DNA of 64,000 nt from SAR202 cluster bacterium (GTDB lineage Bacteria; Chloroflexota; Dehalococcoidia; Lucifugimonadales; UBA1123). Shown here piece by piece: positions 25,202-26,353 of this stretch (positions are counted from its first letter, which is position 1; every line of letters starts with the position of its first letter). Under the pieces are notes generated by a model. That model ran no database searches. It was not told where the DNA came from and saw nothing but the letters and a program-made list of their open reading frames with translations. The DNA lies in contig JASMDM010000067.1 in the NCBI GenBank assembly GCA_030752795.1, positions 124,001 through 188,000 on the forward strand. Direction: 5' to 3'. The position numbers and the translations under genes are program-made.

Positions 25202-26353
25202 ATGAACTCGCCCTCGCTCAATTTCAGTCGTGGCCGGTGCATCGGATTCTTGCTGGTCGTGGTGGTCGCCTTCGTAGCAGCCTGCGGAACAGTCGCCATC
25301 GAGGATCGCCAGACGACCGGCGCAGATGCGATTCAGCGCCCGACACCGACGCCTCAATCCACTGCGATTCCGGCCGCGGCTCCTGTGCCATCTGAACTTT
25401 CTTCGGCACGGCGATCATCGGCAGCGCCAGTCTCGCAGCAGCAGCGCAGATCTCCGTTCGTGCCTCTGGACGATCCCGAATTTCTGAGCGTTCAAGAAGC
25501 AACCTACTTAGGCGACGAGAACTTGGTGCTGGGATTGGACGTGGACGGCAAAGCCCGCGCCTACCCCGTTGGCATGGTCTACTACCACCACGTGGTCAAC
25601 GACACGGTTGCGGGTCGACCGATACTCATCACGTATTGAATCAAGTGCAGCTCGGGGGTCGGGTACGACCCCGTGGTCCGAGGCAGCGCCCTCACCTTCG
25701 ATGTTTTCGGATTGAACCAGGCGGTCCTGTCCATGCGAGACCACGAGACCGGCTCTGTCTGGACTCAGCTCGACGGCAAAGCGACCGACGGGGCTTTGAA
25801 GGGCGAGAGGCTCGAGATGATTCCAATGCCTCAAATGACATGGGGCGAATGGAAGAGTGCACACCCTGACACGCTTGTGCTCTCGCCCAACACGCCATTT
25901 AGCGACCGCTACGGAGCCGTCCGAATCGGCACGTTCAATCCCGGCGAGGCAATCTACGGCGACGACAGGCTCGATGCCAACGCCCTGGTTGTCGGCGTCG
26001 AGGTGGACGGCGAATTCAAAGGCTATCCGATAGCGGAATTCGCTCGGAGCGGAGGCGCGGTCAACGATGTCCTCGCGGGCCAACCGGTTCTCATCATCTA
26101 CGACGAAGCTTCACAAACAGGCATGGCATACTCCAGTTTGGTCGACGGCTCTGCTCTTGAATTCGACGAATCGAATCACGACGGTTTCTCTGTAACCGAC
26201 CGCCAAACCGGCTCCACATGGGACGCTCAAGGCAGAGCAACGGCTGGCGAACTCAACGGACGCACGTTGGAGTTCGTGCCGTCGTTCATCTCCGAGTGGT
26301 ACGGCTGGTCCGCATACCATCCAGACACGACGCTGCACGCCGCGGAACGCTGA
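25202..26353 (+). CDS. DUF3179 lipoprotein (two DUF3179-like repeats), candidate selenoprotein with in-frame UGA at 25637-25639 (codon 146)
   Basis: MNSPSLNFSRGRCIGFLLVVVVAFVAACGT lipobox; DPEFLSVQEATYLGDENLVLGLDVDGKARAYPVGMVYYHHVVNDTVAGRPILITY-[UGA]-IKCSSGVGYDPVVRGSALTFDVFGL; both halves share one frame and homology continues across the UGA. Confidence 0.75.
25651..25682 (+). promoter_or_regulatory. candidate bacterial SECIS hairpin
   Basis: CTCGG GGGTCG [GGTA] CGACCC cgtggt CCGAG; apical loop starts 22 nt after the UGA, loop begins with G. Confidence 0.45.

Follow-up and report, generated by a model that had tools for sequence, protein, structure and literature searches.

The gene at positions 25202-26353 of the window (the 64,000-nucleotide stretch of a SAR202 cluster bacterium contig that was analyzed here) encodes a DUF3179 (PF11376) protein and contains an in-frame UGA that is almost certainly a selenocysteine (Sec) codon. 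The hairpin directly downstream of this codon can be identified with high confidence as a bacterial SECIS element, to which SelB would bind, and the decoded product would be a DUF3179 protein with the motif UxxC. In other words, the hairpin very probably makes the bacterium insert Sec at the redox site of this protein. An annotation treating the UGA as a stop would split the gene in two. The positions of the features are listed in Table 1.

The translated product yields a single full-length match to PF11376 (E-value 7.5e-66; 222.9 bits against a cut-off of 27), and a search of the organism's own genome recovers the gene as a DUF3179 match with 1 TGA. The start codon is inferred, and the gene terminates at the TGA at 26351-26353. 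The protein consists of two domains that form a tandem repeat. The in-frame UGA lies in the context ...GRPILITY-U-IKC-SSGVGYDP... (motif TYUIKC); for comparison, an ordinary DUF3179 motif, SITYCPLCNTA, is found in a stop-free paralogue on contig C71 of the same genome. Examination of the translation by eye reveals an N-terminal signal-like segment that ends in a lipobox-like sequence, AFVAAC; the UxxC site is therefore probably located outside the cytoplasm, and the protein is a putative lipoprotein that would be exported. The motif itself is suggestive of a thiol/selenol redox role.

Table 1. Features of the DUF3179 gene and of the hairpin following its in-frame UGA (window coordinates)
Feature	Position	Strand	Remarks
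DUF3179 (PF11376) selenoprotein gene, UGA read through	25202..26353	+	383 aa; translated with TGA = U
In-frame UGA, putative Sec codon (first position of UxxC)	25637..25639	+	corresponds to the first CxxC Cys in the alignment
Resolving Cys codon TGC of the U-I-K-C motif	25646..25648	+	invariant in alignment A1
Lower helix of the preliminary description, 5' arm CUCGG	25651..25655	+	can form, not conserved; 46.7% of cells paired
SECIS upper stem, 5' arm GGGGUCG	25655..25661	+	compensatory changes among 33 UGA homologues, in which 98.7% of cells pair
SECIS apical loop GGUA, 22 nt after the UGA	25662..25665	+	aligned in 33 relatives
SECIS upper stem, 3' arm CGACCCC	25666..25672	+	pairing and compensatory changes in relatives
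Lower helix of the preliminary description, 3' arm CCGAG	25678..25682	+	can form, not conserved; 46.7% of cells paired

On the plus strand, the TGA at 25637-25639 is followed by ATCAAGTGCAG CTCGG GGGTCG [GGTA] CGACCC CGTGGT CCGAG, ending at 25682, which is the sequence and the interval (25637-25682) reported in a preliminary description of this DNA. The best representation of the element is GGGGUCG[GGUA]CGACCCC (25655-25672). The upper stem had been described as 6 perfect base pairs; these pairs stand, but C25672 is the better partner for G25655, which extends the stem to 7 bp. The 4-nt loop GGUA, beginning with G 22 nt after the UGA, is as described. The 5-bp lower helix that had been thought to close the structure can form and contributes about 0.9 kcal/mol in the window gene. 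Among relatives, however, 46.7% of its cells pair, compared to 98.5% for the upper stem, and it is left out by RNAalifold; it was accordingly rejected as a part of the element. The calculated minimum free energy (MFE) is -13.8 kcal/mol for the helix alone and -15.4 kcal/mol for the segment 25649-25675. The published constraints on bacterial SECIS elements (bSECIS) are a loop of 3-9 nt, a stem of 4-16 bp, a G in the first two loop positions, a spacing of 16-37 nt and an MFE at or below -7.5 (PMC13188914). The window element, which is located directly after the UGA and has a 7-bp stem, a 4-nt loop starting with GG, a spacing of 22 nt and an energy well below -7.5 kcal/mol, falls within all of these limits, so that the fit to the bacterial consensus proposed earlier holds.

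One alternative is that the UGA is a true stop (or results from a sequencing error or from decay of a pseudogene), and that the hairpin arises from the GC-rich composition of the coding DNA. Such DNA indeed forms hairpins, with 5% of random window offsets passing -7.5 kcal/mol, and the longer folds at this site are not unusual: stretches of 45-61 nt around the hairpin are uninformative (z about -1 against dinucleotide shuffles), in line with the caveat on chance hairpins that accompanied the original claim. The 27 nt of 25649-25675 have a z of -2.7, and 0 of 200 dinucleotide shuffles are equally good. When only hairpins that obey the published rules for spacing, loop size and loop G are allowed, synonymous recodings of the gene equal the observed hairpin in 2.0% of the cases with own codon usage and in 3.8% with pooled usage (p = 0.020-0.038), and an equally good hairpin at an allowed spacing follows 0.2% of the 869 plus-strand TGAs in the window. 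Within this gene alone, the hairpin modestly exceeds chance. This signal leaves doubt, and for this reason relatives of the gene were brought into the analysis.

In an alignment of 33 distinct UGA-containing sequences, the 7-bp stem is paired in 98.7% of the cells, and the pairing drops to 37-70% when the partner is slid by 1-3 columns. The first loop base (column 26 of alignment A2) is G in 33/33 relatives. The compensatory changes that the preliminary description had suggested looking for are present, including amino acid changes that keep the pair, with double changes at two stem pairs. In five sequences, the sixth pair is U-A instead of C-G, GUC...GAC (Val, Asp) being replaced by GUU...AAC (Val, Asn); in L155, the fourth pair is also A-U, via Val to Ile and Asp to Asn. 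The C-G/U-A state has changed at least three times on the protein tree, as forced by well-supported branches, a pattern compatible with one gain and two losses. Given that Asp to Asn is tolerated together with a synonymous Val change that restores the base pair, the RNA element constrains the protein, and this is an unusually clear case of such a constraint exerted from within a gene. In the window subfamily, synonymous codon choice is most constrained at codons +6 to +11, which correspond to the stem-loop, and is little constrained at most other codons. In the stem, the Gly codon is GGG in 33/33 sequences (25% in general usage), Val is encoded by GUC in 88% (42% usage) and Pro by CCC in 94% (37% usage). 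In two loci the UGA is kept and the stem is broken, by a change of the Asp codon GAC to TTC (L137:2275-2322) and of the Gly codon GGG to GTG (L165:2711-2758).

A sister Sec subfamily with the peptide signature xGIVYxR (14 sequences) has its helix centre shifted by 1.5 nt. Here, 98% of the cells are paired, against 73% after shuffling and 21-56% in slid registers, and both-side changes are seen at 6 of the 7 pairs. Gly-Ile-Val-Tyr-Ala and Ala-Ile-Val-Tyr-Gly replace each other in this subfamily with the stem kept (GGGC/GCCC, GGCC/GGCC). Some Sec subfamilies carry the loop G at position 3, which is outside the strict bSECIS model.

The nearest named relatives of the window's genome point to the class Dehalococcoidia. 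DUF3179 is represented in 76 of the 197 genomes of the class that were surveyed, and the in-frame stops among the DUF3179 matches listed in this survey are 33 TGA, 2 TAG and 0 TAA. Wherever a UGA occupies the motif position in the fetched homologue loci, it stands in place of the first Cys of CxxC. The subfamily profile, when used to scan named genomes, identifies 42 loci, with a UGA in every one that has a readable motif; no Cys member of the window's subfamily was seen among the loci found. The same UGA and hairpin, together with SelA and tRNA-Sec, are present in the complete genome of the isolate Ca. Lucifugimonas marina JH1073 (CP046147), which shows that they are not an error of metagenome-assembled genomes (MAGs). 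The excess of TGA over TAG and TAA at a single codon position, found in numerous genera and also in the finished genome of an isolate, the conservation of the protein for more than 200 codons past the UGA, and the covariation and synonymous constraint on the stem all speak against this alternative, which is very improbable.

Several further observations concern the distribution of these genes. Members of the Sec-only subfamily, with the hairpin, are also found in records (L153, L154, L157, L160, L161, L162, L164 and L168) that carry the labels Anaerolineae, Acidobacteria, Actinomycetota/Acidimicrobiales and Planctomycetota. This occurrence suggests either horizontal transfer of the gene with its SECIS or misbinned contigs. 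Co-occurrence of UGA-containing DUF3179 genes with SelA or tRNA-Sec is in the right direction and not significant (20/21 vs 19/25, p 0.11) since many genomes of the class have the Sec trait, including genomes without a UGA-containing DUF3179 gene. One UGA-containing genome (G011, 69% complete) has no detectable SelA or tRNA-Sec. A UGA-containing DUF3179 gene in another genome (L096, G190:C1:2387162-2388831) carries, besides the Sec codon, another in-frame TGA located eight codons before it, where relatives usually have Gly; this additional TGA could be either another recoded codon or a sign of a decaying gene.

The stem accompanies Sec rather than Cys. The hairpin is better than synonymous recodings at p < 0.05 in 70-76% of the 33 Sec genes and in 4-6% of the 52 Cys genes, with a median p of about 0.02 for the former and 0.4-0.5 for the latter. 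When three registers are considered, 28 of 33 Sec genes have the complete helix in at least one of them, vs 3 of 52 Cys genes (Fisher 4e-14, relatedness ignored); the three registers were derived from the Sec sequences, which biases this count toward Sec, whereas the shuffle test is free of this bias. Both comparisons had been put forward as checks together with the original claim, and in both the claim survives. A tree of 80 homologues shows 6 changes of the Sec/Cys state, at least 4 of them on supported branches. Among 4 independent Sec/Cys pairs, an average of 3.6 have the hairpin on the Sec side and none shows the opposite; with 4 pairs, a sign test cannot reach 0.05. The Cys genes L114, L115 and L121 are nested in a Sec clade beside L075 and do not have the stem that is present in L075, which looks like a loss following replacement of Sec by Cys. 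These comparisons bear on the possibility that the stem is kept for another reason at the RNA level, such as ribosome pausing or the speed of protein folding, and follows the UGA by coincidence. The stem does overlie a nearly invariant peptide, SGVGFDP, so its conservation is partly a matter of the protein. Nevertheless, the stem is missing in Cys homologues, including the clade nested among Sec genes; Asp to Asn replacements and Ala/Gly swaps retain the pairing; and position and loop agree with the published bSECIS model. An unrelated role of the stem is thus even less credible than true termination.

The genome from which the window comes, a MAG-like assembly of 3.5 Mb in 116 contigs (91% complete), contains the genes selA, selB, selD and selC. 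SelA is detected with 545 bits, SelB above the cut-off on the window's contig, SelD with 366 bits, and tRNA-Sec with 71.9 bits against a gathering score of 47. The SelD gene itself has one in-frame TGA, and the hairpin after it (-12.8 kcal/mol) conforms to the loop-G rule. The selB gene is located on the same contig about 60 kb upstream of the window start (C67:64451-66304); selA, selD and the tRNA-Sec gene are located on another contig, C44. Besides the window gene, two DUF3179 genes of the genome carry a UGA at the motif, and another one does not. In the third UGA-containing copy (L027 / L020 / L021, C24:49399-50302), the frame breaks soon after the SECIS and continues in another frame, due to either an assembly error or pseudogenization. 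The frame of the window gene would be open with the UGA read as any residue, but decoding as another amino acid without a SECIS (by suppression or a variant code, e.g., as Trp or Cys by a near-cognate tRNA) can be dismissed almost entirely given that both this gene (at 26351-26353) and several relatives end in UGA as an ordinary stop, that the site aligns with Cys and not with Trp, that the Sec machinery of the genome is complete, and that a hairpin under selection directly follows the UGA.

In bacteria, Sec is inserted when SelB carrying Sec-tRNA(Sec) binds the SECIS loop and the UGA is decoded. Under the SECIS reading of the hairpin, a ribosome would arrive at UGA 25637, the complex of SelB-GTP and Sec-tRNA(Sec) would bind the G-containing loop GGUA on the 7-bp stem 22 nt downstream, and Sec would be inserted in place of termination, yielding a DUF3179 protein with the redox motif UxxC rather than CxxC.

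The AlphaFold model of the protein (pLDDT 85, pTM 0.84) consists of two similar beta domains, at about residues 38-150 and about 192-302 (first row of A1), with Sec at the end of the strand 69-76 in the first domain. The best 50 VIA-align rows are all Rieske-fold proteins (Z 7.1-9.0); they mostly cover the second half, and one (4aiv) covers residues 45-144, which contain Sec. A Foldseek search with the model gives no match at E <= 0.001, a PDB sequence search with the subfamily profile gives no match, and there is no NCBIfam family at E <= 0.01. Relative to Rieske domains (ferredoxins, oxygenases, NirD-like proteins), whose fold the model may share according to VIA-align, the protein differs in having UxxC (or CxxC) in the first half and in lacking the CxH / CxxH cluster ligands; no Cys/His pairs of this type occur in the columns that are invariant across the Sec subfamily, where there is only UxxC. 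The modelled structure provides a lead, not a classification, toward a tandem Rieske-like fold with UxxC in the first domain. Tentatively, and with the odds somewhat against it, DUF3179 might comprise tandem Rieske-fold domains devoid of Fe-S ligands, where CxxC or UxxC replaces the cluster-binding loop to make a cluster-free, selenium-based redox site within a peptide shaped by the SECIS RNA.

The DUF3179 family (UxxC/T) is tabulated among the known prokaryotic selenoprotein families (PMC9312934; PMC13188914), and its discovery as such, in an Olavius algarvensis symbiont, is credited to Zhang & Gladyshev 2007 (PMC13188914). The family is therefore already known as selenium-containing, and the window gene is a well-supported further member, sharing with the known selenoprotein the PF11376 domain and Sec in the first position of UxxC. 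The terms 'Chloroflexi' and 'SAR202' are absent from the texts of the two reviews (PMC9312934 and PMC13188914). Compared to bSECIS elements, nothing essential differs in the hairpin; the highly conserved GGGGUCG[GNNN]CGACCCC-type sequence is specific to the window's DUF3179 subfamily. The listed DUF3179 selenoprotein comes from a deltaproteobacterial symbiont, whereas several Sec subfamilies are found here in Chloroflexota (of the Dehalococcoidia / SAR202 type), one of which is Sec-only in everything found. The range of DUF3179 selenoproteins is thus widened from a deltaproteobacterial symbiont to a broad set of Chloroflexota.
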